A DNA stretch of 64,000 bases, taken from Lampris incognitus. Its lineage: Eukaryota > Chordata > Actinopteri > Lampriformes > Lampridae. The stretch is from positions 58,311,350-58,375,349 of the forward strand of contig NC_079219.1 in the NCBI RefSeq assembly GCF_029633865.1, written 5' to 3'. Both the position numbers and the translations under genes were made by a program. Positions 42,779-61,154 of this stretch are shown here, piece after piece. The stretch's first letter is position 1. The number at the start of each line of letters is the position of its first letter. Under the pieces are notes generated by a model. It had not been told where the DNA came from and ran no database searches. It saw nothing but the letters and a program-made list of their open reading frames with translations.

Positions 42779-43206
42779 TACTTTTCAGAAATCAGTATGC
42801 GTGTAGTGTCCTGTCATTTATTTTGGGAAGGCAAACTGCATCTGCAGCTTCCTCGCAGGCCTTCAGCTGAGCTGGCAACTGAATGCTGTCATTTCAGGTG
42901 CCAGCCATAAGTGGACATCTTGCTTTATAAATAGAAACAGACTTAATTTTCATACCTCCCAGCCACTGGGTTGACATATTAGAGGCCGTCCTCTACTAGA
43001 AGGTCACAGGCGTGTCCCTGAAGTTGCTAATGGCCACAGAAGTATCGTGTCCTTTCAATATGGAAGGACCTGTAAAATATGATTAATGCACACTATATGT
43101 GTATTTGTTTCTCCTGTATGTCCTGTATTTTGTTTTTTTTCCCCTCTCTCCAGTTACTACATTTACCAGGATGCTTTGCGGCGTAAAGAGTCCCGCTGTT
43201 GAGGTG

Positions 43207-43425
43207 AATTTTGTGATGAGCCAATCATTTAACGTGTTTTTATTTGAATTTTGTGACGAGCCAATCATTTAACGTGTTTTTATTTGAATTTTGTGACGAG
43301 CCAATCATTTAACGTGTTTTTATTTGAATTTTGTGACGAGCCAATCATTTAACGTGTTTTTATTTGAATTTTGTGACGAGCCAATCATTTAACGTGTTTT
43401 TATTTGAATTTTGTGAAGAGCCTGT
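43207..43425. repeat. 40-bp tandem array with CCAAT motif in LTR
   Basis: Five near-identical units containing GACGAGCCAATCATTTAACG and GTTTTTATTTGAATTTTGTG. The right LTR has only about one and a half. Each unit brings one CCAAT-like motif. Confidence 0.95.
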
Positions 43426-43870
43426 AGAGCCGAAGGAACGGAGAAGACCGTAGGTTCACACTTTAGCCGTGTAGGCAACTTTCTTTAATCCACGGTAAAT
43501 CAGAGAGACAACCAAACCACAGCTCGACTGAGCGGAGGTGGCAAGAATAATCAGAAAACTGGCTGGACAACCATAACTTAACCCTGCGTTAACCTGCCAG
43601 GGCAACCATGACTTAACCCTTAGTTCCTGGGTTGAATTCTGTCCCCAATACGTGTCCACCACAAGCCAATCATAATTCGTTAACGCGCTGCAGCCGCGAA
43701 AGAGAGGGAACTGGGCACGTCCATGACTGGACCTGATCTAACCCCGCCGCCCTGGATTCCGTTTGGCTCTGCGTCACCGCCGTTTCTTCGCGGAGACCAT
43801 GTATAGCTTGTTTTGTGTACATCCTTGTTCCTCCTGCCTTTTTCTTGTTCGGTGACTTTGAGCTAGTTAG

Positions 43871-44366
43871 TGTAACCGGTTATTTTCTTGCCCGGTGCGG
43901 GTTTCCATACGAGGTGTACTGCGCCACAAGGCGGCATCACTAACCGCTCGGCTAAAGGGTCAGACCCGTTAGCTAGGGGCTAACGTGTCTTATTAGTAGT
44001 TTACAGTCGTCACCCTCTCCCCGGAAGCGCGCCCTCGCGCTTTGTTCTTCCCGCGCTCCGAAGAGACTTCTGAGAATCTGCACACTTCCGGATCCCGCCG
44101 CTGCCACCAATGTAACCGAGGGTTTGTAGATGTCGCCTATACTGTATGAAACTATAAAATAACATACGGAGGTTCCACTTTCACACGAGGACCACTTTAT
44201 TTGGATTCTCCCCCCCCCCAACCGAACTCCACAGCCACAACACTGCGTACAGCACTTCCGCTCTCTCTTCAGCCTTCAGAATAAGAGCTCAAGGCATGTA
44301 CTGTGGCAACAGCTTATAACAGGAACTTCAAATCACCAACAGGCAAGTCCAGAAAAATAGGTTACA
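43871..44366 (-). mobile_element. Miniature LTR-type insertion with tRNA-Leu PBS
   Basis: Insertion bounded by TGTAACC and GGTTACA. Read on the minus strand it has an LTR-like block (44111-44366, TG..CA ends, AATAAA near 44196) and then TGGTGGCAGCGGCGGGAT. That fits a primer-binding site for tRNA-Leu(UAG), whose 3' end is CCCACCGCTGCCACCA. Next come about 105 bp of non-coding DNA with GGGGAGAGGG, and a 135-bp TG..CA block (43871-44005). The last block shares a core (AGACACGTT, CTAACGGGTC, GACCCTTTAG) with the LTRs at 60 kb. No coding capacity. The two end blocks are not clearly copies of each other, so it may be a composite. Confidence 0.6.
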
Positions 44367-45768
44367 CTAGCTAGCTAGCCAGCTAGCTACTGGTGTTAGC
44401 TAACTGGCTACGGTGTTAGCTAACTGGCTAGCTGACGCTACAAGTTAGCACTGCGGGACCCTGACAAGTTTGCTAACCGCGGCGAGCTAGTTCTGTTTCC
44501 CCTCAGAGGGATCTTCTGAGTTCGTGAGGAGGAGCGGACTGTGGCGGGCTTGATCGCCCCCTTGGCGGCGGTGCTCACTGGCCTAGCTTCGGCTGCAGGC
44601 CAGGAGATAGCTGGGGGAGGGTGACGGTTCCCAGGCTCCTGGACTGAGCGGAGGCCCACGTGTGAGTGGCCTACACTTGCACTGACGGACGCACGCACGG
44701 TCGGCACCCTGAGCTCCGGGAACGGAGGTAAAACCATCGGTCCGAGGAGCGAGCGGTTGAAGTGGCCTCGGTGCACCAGCGGCAAGCGCCTGGTTTATAA
44801 TATCTACAGCACTTTGTGGTTTTTCTGAAGGGAGTTGTTTGTTTTCTTTTGGTTTATTTTACATCACTTTGAGATAGAGAGAGCCACTTTGCCACCTGGG
44901 GGTGAACATTGGTTTCACCCTCCGCTGTCAAATATATTGTTCATCTCCCATTAAAGCCAGTCCGCCAAACCTGCCTGCTGGGTTAGTGGGGCCCTCTTCT
45001 GAGGTGCCTGTCCAGATAGAAGGGATTTATACTAAAGATCTTCTTGATAATGGTTCTCAAGTTGCCATTTTATACCGTAGCTTTTACAGTGCATATTTGA
45101 AGTATTTGCCAATACAGCCAGTGGAAAACCTGGAAATATGGGGTTTGAGCGCTCGCAAATACTCATATAATGGATACCTGTCTCTCAAGCTTGAGTTTAT
45201 TGAAGCTGTTGCTGGAGTGCCTCAGGTGGTAGACACTCAGGCCCTTGTGTGTCCTGACCCTCTGACAGAGGAGGGGATAGCCATTTTGGTTGGCACGAAC
45301 ACTCGCTTAGTGAGGAAGTTGTTTGAGTCTTGTCAAGAACAAGCAGGAGACTGGTTTCTTAGCACTCTGACCATACACCCTATGATACGAGAGGCTTTTG
45401 AGTCCATTAAACAAACAGGTGTCTCACAGGATGACATGGACAAGCATGGTATGGTGTGGTGTGGTTCACCAAGCATAAACCAGCTGTCTTAAAGCCAGAG
45501 CAGGTGCTGCAGCTCTTAAGGTTGCCTAAGTTTCCTGGTAAGTTGAATGAGTCTTTGGTGCTTATAGACCAGGCAGTTGCGACTGATGTTGTGTCTGCTC
45601 CTGAGTTGCAGGTGACGCCTGAAGTTCATCCTGTCTCTGCTGTGTCAAACCGACACATTACTGTGACAGTGAGGAATGTTTCTGCCAGGGGAGTGCTGGT
45701 GAAGCGGGGAAGTCCCCTTGCTCACATATTCCCTGTGGACTTGGTGCCACAGATTCCATCCACTAGCA

Positions 45769-45982
45769 CAGCGTTTCTCAAACCTCTCTTGGAGGACCAC
45801 TTGTCCTGCATGTTTTAGATCTCTCCCTGCTCCAACACAGCTGGTTTAAATTATCAGTTTTGTTACTAGGCAGCTTCAGGAGCTCTTAACGAGTTGATCA
45901 TTTGAATCAGCTGTGTTGGAGCAGAGAGAGATCTAAAACATGCAGGACAAGTGGTCTTCCAGGAGAGGTTTGAGAAACGCTG
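45769..45982. mobile_element. hAT MITE nested in the gypsy element
   Basis: Ends CAGCGTTTCTCAAACC and GGTTTGAGAAACGCTG are perfect inverts, flanked by an exact 8-bp duplication CACTAGCA (45761-45768 and 45983-45990). Its presence inside the gypsy internal region shows it came later. Confidence 0.95.
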
Positions 45983-48900
45983 CACTAGCAGCTTGGAGAA
46001 TACAAGCACACTTTCTTCTGCATCTTTTGACTTTGGTACTTTTCCTATGCCAGAGGAGGCAAAACTGCGTTTGTGTGAGAAAATGATGCAGAGAAGAGAA
46101 GTGTTTTCCTGTCATGAGTGTAAGTAGGCTGCTCAAAAAGCACTATGCATGAGATTAGGCTGAACGACTTACAGCCTTTTCGGGAAAGATCCCGACACTT
46201 AGCCCCAGCTGATCTGGAGGATGTGCGCAAACATTTGCAGGAGCGCCGGAAAAATTGCATTATTGCCGAATCTAGAAGTCCATATGCTTCACCTATTGTG
46301 GTAGTGCGTAAAAAAGTCAGGAAAGGTCAGAATGTGTGTTAACTATCGGACGCTCAACCAGCGGACCATCCCCAACCAGTACACTGTTCCCAGGATCGAG
46401 GACACCCTACCTTGTCCCTCAGGAAGCAAATGGTTCACAGTCTTGGGACTTAAGAAGTGGTTATCAGATTCTGATGAGTGAGGCTGATAAGGAGAAAACA
46501 GCATTAATTTCTCCTTTAGACTTTTACCAATTTGAACGGATGCCTTAGGGTATTTGTGGTGCACCTGCCACGTTTCAGAGAGTCATGGAACGGACTGTCG
46601 AAGATATGAACTTCCTGGAAGTGCTAGTGTACTTGGACGACCTGATTGTTTTTGGAGCATGAGGAGCACCTTTTGAAGGTTCTGGACAGGTTGAGAGATG
46701 AAGGTCTCTTTAGATAAGTGCCAGTTTGGTAGGACTTCTGTGAACTATGTTGGACATGTTGTTTCACAAGCTGGAATAGCCACTGACCCTTCCAAAATAG
46801 AGGTTGTGGTTTCTTGGCCTTGGCCTCAAACCGTGACTGAGCTCAGGTCATTTTTGGGTTTCTGTGGTTATTACCGTCGCTTTGTGAAGGGTTTTTCGAC
46901 ATTGTGCCAACCCCTGAATGAGCTGCTGCAGGGCTGCCCATCTCGGGTTAAAAAGAAAAATTCGAGTTCACCTGCTGCTGACACCAAGCCTGTCTTTAGG
47001 CCCTCTGAACCTTTTGGCTCCAGATGAAGTGACCAGTGTGAGACTGCTTTCCAGGAGCTTAAAACGAGACCGACTCAGGCTGTGGTGCTGGAGACACACA
47101 AAAGCCATATGTTTTGCATGTGGATGCAAGCATTGATGGTCTAGGTGGTGTACCAAGAGCAAGCTGAGGGTTTGCGTCCTGTTGCTTTTGTCAGTCGCGG
47201 TCTTTCTCCGTCAGAGAGAAATTATCCCCAGGACCCCAGGAAGAGTATGGGGATCTAAATAAACAATTAACAATAAATTATTTGGCTCACAAGCTTGAGT
47301 TTTTGGCTGTGAAGTGGGCGATTGTTGATCGACTGCATGATTATCTTATGGAGTCACTTTAGAGGTTAGAACTGACAATCACCCTCTAACCTACATAACC
47401 AAGTCAGCAAAACTGGATGCCACTGGTCACTGTTGGCTGTCAGCATTATCCACCTACAGCTTCAGTCTGAAGTATAGGCCAGGGCAATGGAATATTGATG
47501 CAGATGCATTGTCTAGACGCCCTCGTGCCAGTCATTTCTCGGATGATGAGTGGCAAGAAATTCCAGCCCCTGGGGTGTGAGCTATTTGTCAGGTTGTGTC
47601 CACACAGAGAGCAGGTTGTCCCTCTTATCCACGTGTTGTTGATCAGATAGGTAGTCATGTGTCAGCTATTCCTAAAGCATACTGTCATACCGCTGCTTTA
47701 GCGACTGATCAGTTGCCTACATTTAGTTCTGGTGAGCTTCGAGATGCTCAGGAGAATGATCCTCTTATAGGAGAGATATGGCAAGCTATCAATCAGGAGA
47801 AAGTAGCCAGCAGCATCCAGACTAAGCACCCAGACATTAGGATCCTGAAAAGGGAGTGGGAAAATTTGTCCACTGACAAAGGGTTGTTGTACAGGACAAT
47901 TAAACAGGGTGACCAGCGTGTGAGACAACTGGTGCTACCTAAGAAATTTTACAGCCTTGTTTTGAAGTTGCTGTATGATGACATCGGCCACTTGGGGTTT
48001 GATAAGTCATATAATTTGGTTCGTGACAGATTTTACTGGCCCCGTATGAAACTGGAAGTGGAGAAATATTGTCGGACTTGTGAATGCTGCATCCAGAGGA
48101 AAACACTTCCTCAAAGAGCTGCTCCTCTTTCCCACATTCAGAGTTCTGGACCTCTGGATCTGGTGTGCATGAACTTTCTTTCGATTGAGCCTGACTCTCG
48201 AAATGTCTGCAATGTGTTGGTTGTTACCGACCATTTCACACGGTATGCACAAGCTTTTCCCACTAGGGACCAGACAGCTGTTACTGTAGCAAAGACTCTG
48301 TGGGAAAAGTATTTTATTCATTATGGTTTGCCTACCCGCATACACTCAGACCGGTATAGGGATTTTGAAAGTCGATTGATGACTTGAGATGCTGACCATG
48401 TTGGGGGGTGAAGCAGTCTAGAACATCCCCATATCACCCACAGGGAGACCCCCAGCCTGAGAGGTTCAATAGAACCTTGCTGGATATGTTAGGCACTCTT
48501 GAGTCTTACCAAAAGTCGAAATGGAGCCAGCACATTACGCATCTGGTACATGCATATAACTGTACTCTTAATGAGGCTACTGGGTACTCACGCGATTTCC
48601 TAATGTTTGGTAGGGAAGCCTGACTCCCTGTAGATGTCTGCTTTGGTGTTTCAGCAGATAACCTGTCATCTTCTTGACATTTGACATATGTGACTAAGAT
48701 GAAGCAAGAGTTGCAGGCTGCTTACCAGTTAGCTCAAGCCTCTGCCGATAAGATGAATCAGAGTAATGCAGAAAGGTATGACCAGCAAGTCCGCTATCAT
48801 AGTTTGAGTCCTGGGGATTGGGTTTTGATTTGAAATCTGGGTCTGAAGGGAACACACAAGCTTGCAGATAGATGGAGCTCTTGTCCGTATGTAGCTGACA

Positions 48901-49803
48901 GTCAGTTGTCATATCTGCCTGTGTACAGACTAAGGTCTGTTGACGGTACAGAGCCAGTCAAGGTGATGCACCGTAACCATATCTTGCCTTTGGGACAAGA
49001 GGTTAGACTAGGTCTTGTGGTTGACACCATACCAGCTCCATGTCCTCAAGCTGTGAGGCGTGGAAAGGCTAAGGAGAAGCGTAGAGCTGATGAGCCTGAA
49101 ATACCGCCTCCTGTAGTTCATAGAGACTGTTCTTCAGATTCTGAGGCTGAGTTTGGCTGTTATGCTGAAGATGTAATACCGAACACCCCTCAGGTGACTA
49201 AAAACACACAGAATGCTCAGCCTGTACGGGAGTCAGATTCCACTGAACCTAGTGACTCCACTGCACCTAGTGACCCTATTTGACTCCACTCACCTCTTAA
49301 TGTACTTACAGTTCCCTTAGAGGCTGAGCTCCCTGTCAGTCCACTTGGGACAGCTGAGGTTGTAGAGGACTTAGTACCTGTAACCGAGGACTGTAGCTTT
49401 CCTGACACTTACCCTGTAGCTCACTTTGATGTAGGTCCTTCAGACTTAGTGCCTCCTGTAGTACGCAGGTCGAGCAGGGAGAGGAAGCCTACTGACCATT
49501 TGACTTATGGCAGACTGGGAGTGCAAAGTAGGAACGGTGTAGTAGCATCACGGCATTGTGGGGTTCACCTAGCAACTTTACTCACATTTCCTTGATAATT
49601 AGAATAGTTCTCATGCCTGGTGGTGTAACTCACAAGCTCTATGTAACACCTGTACACATAGGCCTTCACTTGTGCCATGCACTACGCCTGCCATTACACC
49701 CATAGTCAGTTTTTGAGTACTAGACAATGTTTGTTGTTTTGTTTCATCTTATTACGTATGTGACCCAGCATGGGGGCATGCTGTATATTTGTTAGGGGGA
49801 GAG

Positions 49804-51045
49804 TGTAAGGACCTGTAAAATATGATTAATGCACACTATATATTTTTTTCTCCTGTATGTCATGTATTTTTTTTCTCCAGTTACTACATTTACCAGGATG
49901 CTTCATAGTGTAAAGAGTCCCGCTGTTAAGGTGAAATTTTGTGATGAGCCAATCATTTAACGTGTTTTTATTTGAATTTTGTAAAGTGCCAATCATAATT
50001 TGTTAATGCACTGCAGCCGTGAAATTGCGGAGGAATCTGGGAGTCCGGGTCGACACTCGGGAGAGAGAGGTGACTTGTTGTACTGCTCTGTGTCACCGCT
50101 GTTTTGTTTTTGTGGAGACCAGGTATAACTTATCTTTGTGTACACAGGCCCACAAGTGTAAAACAGCGCTGGTCATCCGGATCATCCTTCCTCCTCGTGC
50201 ATTTTTCTTTTTCTGTGACTTTGAGCTAGTTAGCTAGCTACTGGTGTTGGCTAACTGGCTAGCTGACACTCCAAGTTAGCACTGCGGGACCCTGACAAGT
50301 TTGCTAACCGCAGTGAGCTAGTTCTGTTTCCCTTTAGAAGGATCCTCTGAGTTCGTGAGGAGGAGCGGACTGTGGCGGGCTTGGTGGCGGTGCTCACTGG
50401 ACTTGCTTCTGCTGCAGGCCAGGGGGCAACTGGAGGGTGACGGTTCCCAAGCTCCTGGACTACACTTGCACTGACGGACGCACACACGGTTTGCACCCTA
50501 AGCTACGGGAATGGAGGTAAAACCATCGGCTCAGGGAGCTGACATCGGTCCGAGGAGCGAGCGGTTGAAGTGGCCTCGGTGCACCAGTGGGCCCCAGCGG
50601 CAAGCGCCTGGTTTATAATATCTACAGTACTTTGTGGTTTTTCTGAAGGGAGTTGTTTGTTTTCTTTTGGTTTATTTTATATTACTTTACGATAGAGAGA
50701 GCCACTTTGCCACCTGGGGGTGAACATTGGTTTCACCCTCCGCTGTCAAATATACATCATGGTTTGATTTATTTTGTTTATTTCATTTTATTCTCTATAA
50801 CTATTATCAATTAATAAATCTACTTTTCTGTTTAATTATATCTTGGGTGTATTGGCTGCTCATTTTAACTGGGTAAGTGCAGGGTCAATGTGCTCAGTAA
50901 TATAGAACGCCACGGCTTGATAGAAATTGCGCACACACCTATAGGATGATAGGTATCCATTACCAGCGTTAGAATATTTCTAACTTAAATTCTGGGGAAA
51001 TACATAATATACTAGCTTAATTGTGGGTGTAGTATTTCCGCAGTG
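49804..51045 (+). repeat. Right gypsy LTR
   Basis: Starts TGTAAGGACCTGTAAAATAT after the purine tract and repeats the left LTR blocks, including GAGCCAATCATTTAACGTG, the TAGCTAGCTACTGGTGTT stretch and CTTTGCCACCTGGGGGTGAA. It continues through AATAAA (near 50814) to TAGTATTTCCGCA. The 3' border is inferred and could be up to about 120 bp further right. Confidence 0.7.
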
Positions 51046-59149: not shown

Positions 59150-59750
59150 TCCCTTTGGCACTTTGGATATATCTATGTATTTTTGGATGGAATGTATATT
59201 TACCAGGTTTGTTTTATAATGAACTTTCTTCAAGAATCTGTACGTGAATATAAACAATGTTCAATAAAAATATATTATTTTTAAATTCAACGGAATGCAA
59301 AATTCAAACAAAAGAAAGTAAGAATAACTATAAACAAACAAAAAGGGACAGCACGTCAGTTTTACAAAGTAGTTTTCTAAATGAAATCATAATGACTGGG
59401 GGCACTGAGAAGAATAATTGCGAAAATATATACTACACGTTGTTTGTGTCTGTGGACCCTATGTTCTGTCGCCACTGGGTGGCGCTGTGAAGCGATGGCC
59501 GGCGAAGAGGGACTGCTGTAAGGGGACAGAAGAAGAACAAGCGGAGCGAAGACGGGAAGTTGGATGGGTGCTACGTGTTGCTAAAGTAAAGTTAAATAAC
59601 CGTTCGTTGGTCTCCGGTGACCACTCACCAACGTGACATGATGACCATCTGACGATATCATCAGTCACATGGCGGCGTCTAGCCTTTCTTATTGTCAAGT
59701 CGCCGCTCCCTGCCATGCGTTCCTGCTGGCTGGTGGGACGCGTGATTTTT
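59150..59750. other. Intergenic DNA
   Basis: No exon recognised. The short frames at 59257, 59418 and 59459 show no family resemblance. 59470-59545 is GC-richer with (GAAGAA) motifs, like the repeat near 24100. Confidence 0.35.
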
Positions 59751-59751
59751 T

Positions 59752-59938
59752 TCCGTACCCGTTTTCCGGATGCCTCTGATTGGCTAGTACTCGTTGCCTC
59801 CGTTGATTAGGTTGGGGGTTAGGGATAGGGTTAGCCAATCAGAGATAGAGTACGGGCAGGTCTTCCCGGAATCCAGGTGAACGCTCTCTCAACGAGTACT
59901 AGCCAATCAAGAGGCGGAGTTCCCGGAAAACGGGTACG
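59752..59938. repeat. Inverted-repeat element with GGTTAGG core
   Basis: The ends CGTACCCGTTTTCCGG and CCGGAAAACGGGTACG are exact inverts. Inside them GATTGGCTAGTACTCGTTG pairs with CAACGAGTACTAGCCAATC. The centre holds GATTAGGTTGGGGGTTAGGG and GATAGGGTTAGCCAATCAG. No coding capacity; probably a MITE. Confidence 0.8.
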
Positions 59939-59992
59939 TGCATGGATAAGTAGACACGTTGGCCCTTGGCTAACGGGTCGGACCCTTTAGTC

Positions 59993-60238
59993 CAGTGTTT
60001 CTCAACCCAGTCCTCAAGGACCCCCTATCCTGCATATTTTCCTTGCAACCCTGAATAGGTACCTGTTTATAGTTATTCAACCAATCAGCAATGAATTATG
60101 TCAGCCGTTGCACACCTTGGATAATTAAGTGCTGCGAGATGATTGGTCGAGTAAGTACAAGCAGGGCTACCTATGCAGGGGTACAATGAAAATCTGCAGG
60201 ATAGGGGGTCCTTGAGGACTGGGTTGAGAAACCCTGCA
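59993..60238. mobile_element. hAT MITE inside LTR copy 1
   Basis: Ends CAGTGTTTCTCAACCCAGTC and GACTGGGTTGAGAAACCCTG are inverts. The flanks CTTTAGTC and GTTTAGTC are an 8-bp duplication with one difference. The long arms share CCTCAAGGACCCCCTATCCT in inverse orientation. Confidence 0.9.
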
Positions 60239-60517
60239 GTTTAGTCGACTGGTTAACGTTGTCGCTTGGCGGAGCGGGAGATACGGGTTCGCGTCTCGGT
60301 CGCGGCAGTTCCCGTGGTTGCCCCCCCTCCCCCCGAATTCGCTGCATTGGTGTCAGAAGTGGGACGGTGCGCCCAGAGGCTCACATGAGGGAGCCGATAT
60401 GCTGAAGCGCCTCCCGAAGGTGGGGAGTAGTAGTGTAACGTGCATGGATAAGTAGACACGTTGGCCCTTAACTAACGGGTGGTTATAACGTTGTCGCTTG
60501 CGGTGCAGGAGATACGG

Positions 60518-60820
60518 CAGGGGTCCCCAATAGGCGGCCCCGCGGGCCACGTCCGGCCCGTGACGGGTTGATTTATGGTCCGCGAGAATTTTTGGAGAAA
60601 TGCCAGAAGGAAGATTTTTTTTTATTTCCCTACCAAAAAATTTTTCTTTAATTTCTTAGTAAAAGTAAGCCTAGTAATATATCGAAAAATAGATGAAAAA
60701 TCTCTGTTTAAATTATAATACCTGCAACGTAAAACAAACTAACGAACAACATGCTGCTGGAGGTTGAGTGGCCCGTGGTTTTAAAAGTGGCCCGCTATGA
60801 AAAGTAATTGGGGACCCCTG
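60518..60820. mobile_element. hAT MITE inside LTR copy 2
   Basis: Ends CAGGGGTCCCCAAT and ATTGGGGACCCCTG are perfect inverts with exact 8-bp flanks AGATACGG (60510-60517 and 60821-60828). It is of a different family from the MITE in LTR copy 1. Confidence 0.95.
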
Positions 60821-60963
60821 AGATACGGGTTCGCGTCCCGGCTGTGGCGGTCCCGGACTGTCCCCCCCCCCCCCCAATTCGTTACATTGATGTCAGAAGT
60901 GGGATGGTGGCGTTATTATGAAACCCACTGCTTTTCTGGGCAAGACACGCCCTGTGCAGCATT

Positions 60964-61060
60964 CAAGCGCTAGGATTGGCCAGGCGTCCAAGCGCTAGGA
61001 TTGGCCAGGCGTCCAAGCGCTAGGATTGGCCAGGCGTCCAAGCGCCAGGATTGGCCACAT
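60964..61060 (+). promoter_or_regulatory. 25-bp tandem repeat with inverted CCAAT boxes
   Basis: Four units of CAAGCGCTAGGATTGGCCAG plus GCGTC. Each carries ATTGG (CCAAT on the other strand) and a GCGC core. They lie about 100-190 bp upstream of the likely first-exon donor (61154) of the right-edge gene. A GC-box-like CCACGCCCCG follows at 61070. Confidence 0.7.
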
Positions 61061-61084
61061 GAGTATAACCACGCCCCGTAAAGA

Positions 61085-61154
61085 AAGCTGAGTCAGACTA
61101 GATAGAGTAGACACATAATCGTTTTTTTGCGCCATTAACGATCTATCGAGCTCA
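61085..61154 (+). other. Probable 5' UTR exon of right-edge gene
   Basis: A strong donor GAGCTCA|GTAAGTAG at 61154/61155 lies just downstream of the CCAAT array and GC box. The next good acceptor (TTTTTTGCAG at 61669) opens the exon containing the ATG at 62000. Confidence 0.4.

Follow-up and report, generated by a model that had tools for sequence, protein, structure and literature searches.

The array at 59936-60909 of the window (the whole stretch of 64,000 nucleotides analysed here) raises two questions: whether it derives from a miniature LTR retrotransposon (TRIM) carrying a tRNA-like stretch in its LTRs, and which autonomous element such a TRIM would depend on. The array is a decayed relic of a very abundant, tiny retrotransposon. 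It is very probably an old, truncated tandem copy of a Helenus-type, non-autonomous LTR retrotransposon, for which a five-step cycle is proposed below.

Architecture of the array

The array consists of LTR1, an 87-bp interior, LTR2 and a second primer site, in a window with an overall GC content of 44.5%. LTR1 (59936-60346, plus strand) and LTR2 (60434-60886, plus strand) are direct repeats matching over a 43-bp block at 95%, a 92-bp block at 83% and shorter blocks; LTR2 retains the ends TGTAACG...CGTTACA, and the two direct LTR copies of the sequence-only reading were thereby confirmed. LTR1 begins at about LTR position 5-8, having lost its first 4-7 bases, and its 5' end is broken beside a palindromic MITE (59754-59938). 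The interior (60347-60433, plus strand) runs from the primer site TTGGTGTCAGAAGTGGGA, which we take to be of the tRNA-Leu CAA type, to a purine-rich end, ...GGTGGGGAGTAGTAG, as had been read. The second primer site, also anticipated, lies directly behind LTR2 at 60887-60909 (plus strand) together with the truncated start of a second interior, a remnant of the array. A tandem repeat of 25 bp in 3.8 copies (60964-61057) is located directly beside the array.

Both LTRs are split by MITEs, again in agreement with the sequence-only reading. The MITE in LTR1 (59993-60236) has 69-nt inverted arms (91%) and is flanked by two copies of the 7-bp TTTAGTC, and that in LTR2 (60518-60820) is flanked by the duplication AGATACGG (two copies, 8/8). 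Both are presumably hAT-type, a label that goes by CAG...CTG ends and 8-bp duplications. LTR1 carries an A-box-like motif, TTAGTCGACTGG (60241-60252, plus strand), and a B-box-like motif, GGGTTCGCGTCTCGG (60285-60299, plus strand). The stretch CGGACCCTTTAGTCGAC is missing from LTR2, which kept its B box and is without an A box; the claim that each LTR holds both boxes was thus right for LTR1 and for the B box of LTR2, and wrong for the LTR2 A box.

Family 1 in the host genome

We searched the 1.48-Gb host genome with patterns from this family (family 1), all genome-wide repeat counts being lower bounds. Exact copies numbered at least 1078 for a B-box 22-mer, at least 2253 for a primer-site 23-mer and at least 3153 for a 27-mer from the LTR 5' end, and each reversed control gave 0, indicating that the family exists beyond chance. 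No family copy was detected in viral contigs (two patterns) or in prokaryote genome contigs (one pattern).

Eight initial loci were joined by 60 around B-box matches and 30 around primer-site matches, sampled on contig C1. One of them, L023, is a complete natural copy with an LTR of 155 bp, an interior of 118 bp, a second LTR of 155 bp and ATAA on both flanks. The loci yielded 118 clusters, and 110 were counted after eight at locus edges were dropped; the window pieces and L003, L005, L004, L035, L052, L097 and L098 were left out of the counts (L003 and L005 overlap L002 and L004, and L004 duplicates L002). LTRs of one orientation made up 85 of the 110 clusters, including 34 single LTRs without an interior and 27 with two LTRs and one interior, the remainder being fragments or arrays of up to four LTRs. 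Divergence between the paired LTRs of 30 LTR-interior-LTR units had a median of 9.7% and a minimum of 1.9%.

We then compared the 4-bp flanks in those one-orientation clusters, 35 in all, that retain both LTR ends. The flanks agreed exactly in 22, at three of four positions in 5 and at two or fewer in 8, compared with a mean of 8.3 exact matches (maximum 15 in 5000) upon shuffled pairing; shuffled pairs also match often because the target sites are biased, ATAT occupying 18 of 38 left flanks in a first pass that included duplicates and inner boundaries. The 22 duplications belong to other genome copies, the window copy having lost its LTR1 5' end. The 5-bp duplications that had been anticipated were absent from all 35 clusters, the family using 4 bp instead. 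With the genome copies, the 4-bp duplications, the tRNA-Leu-type primer site and the tRNA similarity described next, the reading of the array as a TRIM with a tRNA-like LTR stretch in tandem layout is supported.

The tRNA-like stretch of the LTR

To evaluate the tRNA-like stretch, LTRs were aligned with ten tRNA sequences, with 400 shuffles per query. The L023 LTR scored 38 against tRNA-Gly (shuffles reached 32 at most, and 0/400 reached 38), and its aligned stretch finishes with a T arm and GGGTTCG. For a second family, described below, the LTR scored 39 against tRNA-His, a value reached by 0/400 shuffles. The scores of the LTR1 part in the window (31) and of the LTR part of L015 (33) were equalled by 6/400 and 2/400 shuffles, respectively. 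Across 47 LTR pieces anchored at the primer site, and so not selected by their B box, non-CpG conservation was 0.923 in the A box, 0.957 in the B box and 0.852 in the rest; the last 15 bases of the LTR were conserved above both boxes (0.976).

ARAGORN detected no tRNA gene in the window or in 60 of the 68 loci, and Rfam reported no tRNA in the window at gathering scores. The Rfam tRNA model had no match at E≤10 in 10 of the 68 loci and in 59700-61100. Matches to miRNA and other Rfam models were under gathering scores and were treated as chance. From these ARAGORN and Rfam results, "tRNA-like" denotes promoter-like boxes and not a tRNA. A TTTT run, the Pol III stop signal, was present in 7 of the 89 full LTRs and in none of the 44 full interiors. 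A Pol III promoter in the family-1 LTR is therefore plausible as judged from its sequence, a functional tRNA in the LTR is implausible, and no Pol III stop site stands out.

The same A and B boxes would fit a tandem tRNA-derived SINE whose LTR features arose by coincidence. We consider this highly improbable, since the copies have a primer site, a purine tract, TG...CA ends, solo LTRs and LTR-interior-LTR units; the exact, fixed 4-bp duplications adjoining the TG...CA ends contradict a SINE, which would have variable duplications and a tail, and no SINE-type tail was seen in the copies inspected.

A second TRIM with a Gypsy LTR

A BLAST search of the array LTR against the window located a second, related TRIM at 43871-44366 on the minus strand. 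It comprises LTR-a (44111-44366, minus strand; 256 bp), a Gypsy LTR serving as its 5' LTR; the family-2 interior INT2 (44006-44110, minus strand) with the primer site TTGGTGGCAGCGGCGGGAT, presumably of the tRNA-Leu AAG type; and LTR-b (43871-44005, minus strand; 135 bp), the family-2 TRIM LTR with the tRNA-His-like stretch. Family 2 matches family 1 at 78% over LTR-b positions 16-87, a family-2 29-mer has at least 3356 exact genome copies, and three single family-2 LTRs are flanked by 4-bp duplications (CTAA, ATAA and CTAG).

The whole second TRIM is flanked by CTAG and CTAA (3/4). It sits inside an LTR of the window's own Gypsy (43061-50754); the insertion site being a CTAG repeat, comparison with the uninterrupted Gypsy LTR did not clearly reveal the duplication. 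As a partner of the TRIM, this Gypsy was set aside, its LTR being a different sequence. The LTR blocks of this Gypsy-like element are about 82-86% alike, and it contains an integrase reading frame (47581-48387; Pfam Integrase_H2C2 and rve), a tandem repeat of 40 bp in 5.4 copies inside one LTR (43205-43422; about one to two units in the other) and a MITE-like inverted-repeat insert (45763-45988) whose ends match the LTR1 MITE at 77%.

A first look gave 528 candidates for the LTR-a family; 40 were scored, yielding the window copy, 39 near-full-length copies at 94-95% and one partial copy at 92%. At C6:38019264-38025529, two LTR-a copies enclose a 6.3-kb element with CTAT on both flanks and the same primer site as the second TRIM. 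Pieces inside it match the Pfam models for aspartyl protease, RT RNase H and integrase zinc-binding, and by sequence the element is of the Gypsy type.

Beyond the LTR ends, LTR-a and LTR-b show no similarity. This bears on the alternative that the repeat is simply the LTR of a full-length Gypsy, the short copies being deletion products. The Gypsy found does share the TG...CA ends, the 4-bp duplications and a tRNA-Leu-type primer site, but its LTR is unlike the family-2 TRIM LTR, and for family 1 the 30 LTR-interior-LTR units exist and all 30 loci anchored at the primer site adjoin a family-1 LTR or its short interior. We regard this alternative as very unlikely and keep the TRIM reading; the same 30 loci did not reveal the main autonomous partner of family 1.

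We next read 37 LTR-a copies (L119-L155). A primer site follows 24 of them, leading into INT2 in 20, the Gypsy leader in 3 and another sequence in 1, in a sample that may be biased toward hybrids because the search started from the hybrid LTR of the window. Exact 4-bp duplications flank 6 of the 13 copies that lack a primer site; the other 7 stand after a purine stretch ending in GGTA, as expected of Gypsy 3' LTRs. Genome-wide, a 35-mer across the hybrid LTR-a/INT2 junction occurs at least 156 times and the ordinary LTR-b/INT2 junction at least 1279 times (controls 0).

The TRIM 3' LTR follows INT2 in 19 of the 20 hybrids read. Far ends were fetched for 18 of the 20 (L120 was already complete, with CCAG on both flanks, and L135 is inverted), and the LTR-b end was present in 16, giving 11 exact 4-bp duplications and 13 matching at three or more positions, compared with a mean of 1.3 exact matches (maximum 6 in 5000) upon shuffled pairing. 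A further interior follows in L126 and L143, and the common flanks of L127 and L147 probably reflect one event; with these adjustments, 10 of 13 independent hybrid ends match exactly. The duplications indicate that the hybrids were integrated as hybrid units.

Did the hybrids form repeatedly, or do they descend from one self-copying lineage with unequal LTRs? Their constant layout of LTR-a, INT2 and LTR-b agrees with a single lineage, as does the excess of hybrids over Gypsy leaders (20 versus 3 of the 24 LTR-a copies with a primer site, in a window-biased sample). In a tree with few informative sites, weak signal and no starred branch, however, the LTR-a of 21 hybrids did not cluster apart and were interspersed among 19 Gypsy or solo copies (11 label changes versus a shuffled mean of 12.0). 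The LTR-a and INT2 distances among the 20 hybrids, with means of 1.7% and 3.6%, did not rise together (r = -0.27, or -0.40 without the window copy), and two ordinary TRIM interiors were as far from the hybrid interiors (3.5% and 3.9%) as these are from one another. In addition, ordinary reverse transcription does not regenerate an element whose two LTRs are unequal. A single lineage is thus unlikely, although we give it more weight than the Gypsy-LTR alternative, and the mixed tree together with the uncorrelated distances favours repeated hybrid formation. The likely cause of the hybrids is that Gypsy plus-strand strong-stop DNA moved onto TRIM cDNA via the shared primer site. If so, the LTR-a Gypsy and the family-2 TRIM would have been reverse-transcribed together, which would name the partner.

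A foreign sequence joined to family-1 interiors

Three family-1 interiors (L036, L041 and L047) are preceded by a foreign sequence, X, and the primer site TGGTACCAGGAGTGGGGT, the TRIM portion setting in immediately behind that site. X is at least ~780 bp long, has an AATAAA and ends in CGGGCTACA. The primer site after X differs from that of family 1 and is presumably of the tRNA-Leu UAA type. The X-joined interiors account for 3 of the 14 family-1 interiors without an aligned adjoining LTR, several of the others showing a decayed LTR end. The junction of X with the family-1 interior has 8 exact genome copies, including L041 and L047 (control 0). At L062, X together with its tRNA-Leu-type primer site, again unlike that of family 1, is fused to a family-1 LTR. 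The X hybrids would form a family-1 parallel to the Gypsy-TRIM hybrids, X being a candidate Gypsy LTR.

Inverted units and palindromes

LTRs of both orientations were found in 25 of the 110 family-1 clusters, in 24 of 89 loci. Ten of these mixed clusters have both outer LTR ends, and in all ten the outer ends are of the same type (six U3/U3 and four U5/U5), which is what an inverted layout requires. Their 4-bp flanks matched exactly in 5, at three positions in 4 and at two in 1, compared with a mean of 2.3 and a maximum of 6 for shuffled flanks (P = 0.036). Loci with inverted units include L002, L006, L008, L016, L021, L090, L091 and L135, the last consisting of LTR-a, INT2 and an inverted LTR-a with CGAG at both sides.

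A genome-wide scan that covered the sequence immediately preceding the A box returned 13 palindromes, 10 of them centred on GGGTC-N-GACCC. Among inverted repeats with arms of 5 or more and a loop no longer than 3, this motif is the only one in the L023 LTR, where its start lies 12 bases 5' of the A box. The inverted LTR units suggest further strand switching: cDNA ends at the RNA 5' end would anneal via GGGTC-N-GACCC and then be extended, giving palindromes. Alternatively, the palindromes may have arisen by fold-back at the DNA level.

Relation to Helenus and other elements

Family 1 is a TRIM with a tRNA-related LTR, a kind already published as Helenus. It has two short LTRs and a short interior within less than 1 kb (non-coding as judged from length alone), a primer site and a purine tract at the interior ends (the primer being presumably tRNA-Leu), exact 4-bp duplications and a tRNA-derived A/B-box stretch in the LTR, as in L023. 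The TRIM size, LTR boxes, tRNA-Leu primer, 4-bp duplications and arrays fit the Helenus description; the assignment rests on published features, family 1 being set beside the Helenus families by description and not by consensus sequence.

In the parts of Kojima 2024 (PMC10886601) used here, Helenus, comprising zebrafish LTR-11_DR and its relatives (the TRIMp3 group), is reported from coelacanth, sturgeon, paddlefish, zebrafish and other fish, and the suggestion that a vertebrate TRIM with a tRNA-like LTR may be undescribed is superseded. The same parts agree with our families in TRIM size, in the LTR A and B boxes, in a primer site for tRNA-Leu (given there for vertebrates beside tRNA-His and tRNA-Lys), in the 4-bp duplications of the animal elements and in the tandem arrays of LTR-11_DR, and a Gypsy partner is proposed there, as it is here for family 2 (PMC10886601). 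There, Pol III transcription of Helenus is called unvalidated, how TRIM dependence on an autonomous element persists is stated as not known, and no indication of a Cassandra partner is given (PMC10886601). Gypsy-LTR hybrids were not found in those parts, and the words "inverted" and "palindrom" are absent from the main text (PMC10886601).

Cassandra of plants (PMC7215508, in the parts used) likewise has a Pol III-type small-RNA stretch in a TRIM LTR and tandem arrays, but its stretch is 5S RNA, not tRNA, and its host is a plant. The biv-TRIM of bivalves (PMC6934838, in the parts used) is another animal TRIM with solo LTRs and tandem arrays, whereas no canonical primer site was identified and no tRNA-like LTR was seen in the bivalve element. 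For the hybrids, a comparable case is that of HIV-1 proviruses having asymmetric LTRs, for which a switch of plus-strand strong-stop DNA to another molecule at the primer site has been proposed; according to the portions drawn on, that case involves two copies of one virus, unlike a Gypsy and a TRIM with an unrelated LTR (PMC9278108). Complex LTR insertions in Triticeae were also attributed to template switching, with two events in ~7 Mb in the portions drawn on, and the words "strong-stop" and "autonomous" are absent from that paper's text (PMC1950507). The listings of open-licence literature that we scanned contained no account of TRIMs having inverted LTR units or forming hybrids with Gypsy. 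New here are more than 150 natural Gypsy-TRIM hybrids, the inverted units being a further notable addition; the TRIM family itself enlarges a known group.

Proposed cycle and implications

In the cycle that we propose, Pol III would start just upstream of the LTR A box, and tRNA-Leu, to judge from the primer site, would prime reverse transcription at that site. Gypsy would provide the reverse transcriptase and integrase, a step with indirect evidence from the sister family 2, whose hybrids have a Gypsy 5' LTR. Integration would then proceed with the observed 4-bp duplication, often at the observed ATAT-like sites, and recombination or read-through would give rise to the solo LTRs and arrays that we see.

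We lean, with reservation, toward a joint reading in which the cDNA of a Helenus-type TRIM is made in the particles of a specific Gypsy. The junctions counted at least 156 times would stem from jumps of plus-strand strong-stop DNA, and in family 1 the primer site of the foreign donor would have been kept to its 18th base, where the TRIM interior takes over. The inverted units and the GGGTC-N-GACCC palindromes would be integrated by-products of cDNA synthesis that mark the RNA 5' end, namely the Pol III start.

If this joint reading is true, hybrid junctions would offer a general route from any TRIM to its autonomous partner. When located at the primer site, such junctions provide sequence evidence of joint reverse transcription, and the partner question can be tested in any genome by counting junctions composed of a foreign LTR, a primer site and a TRIM interior.
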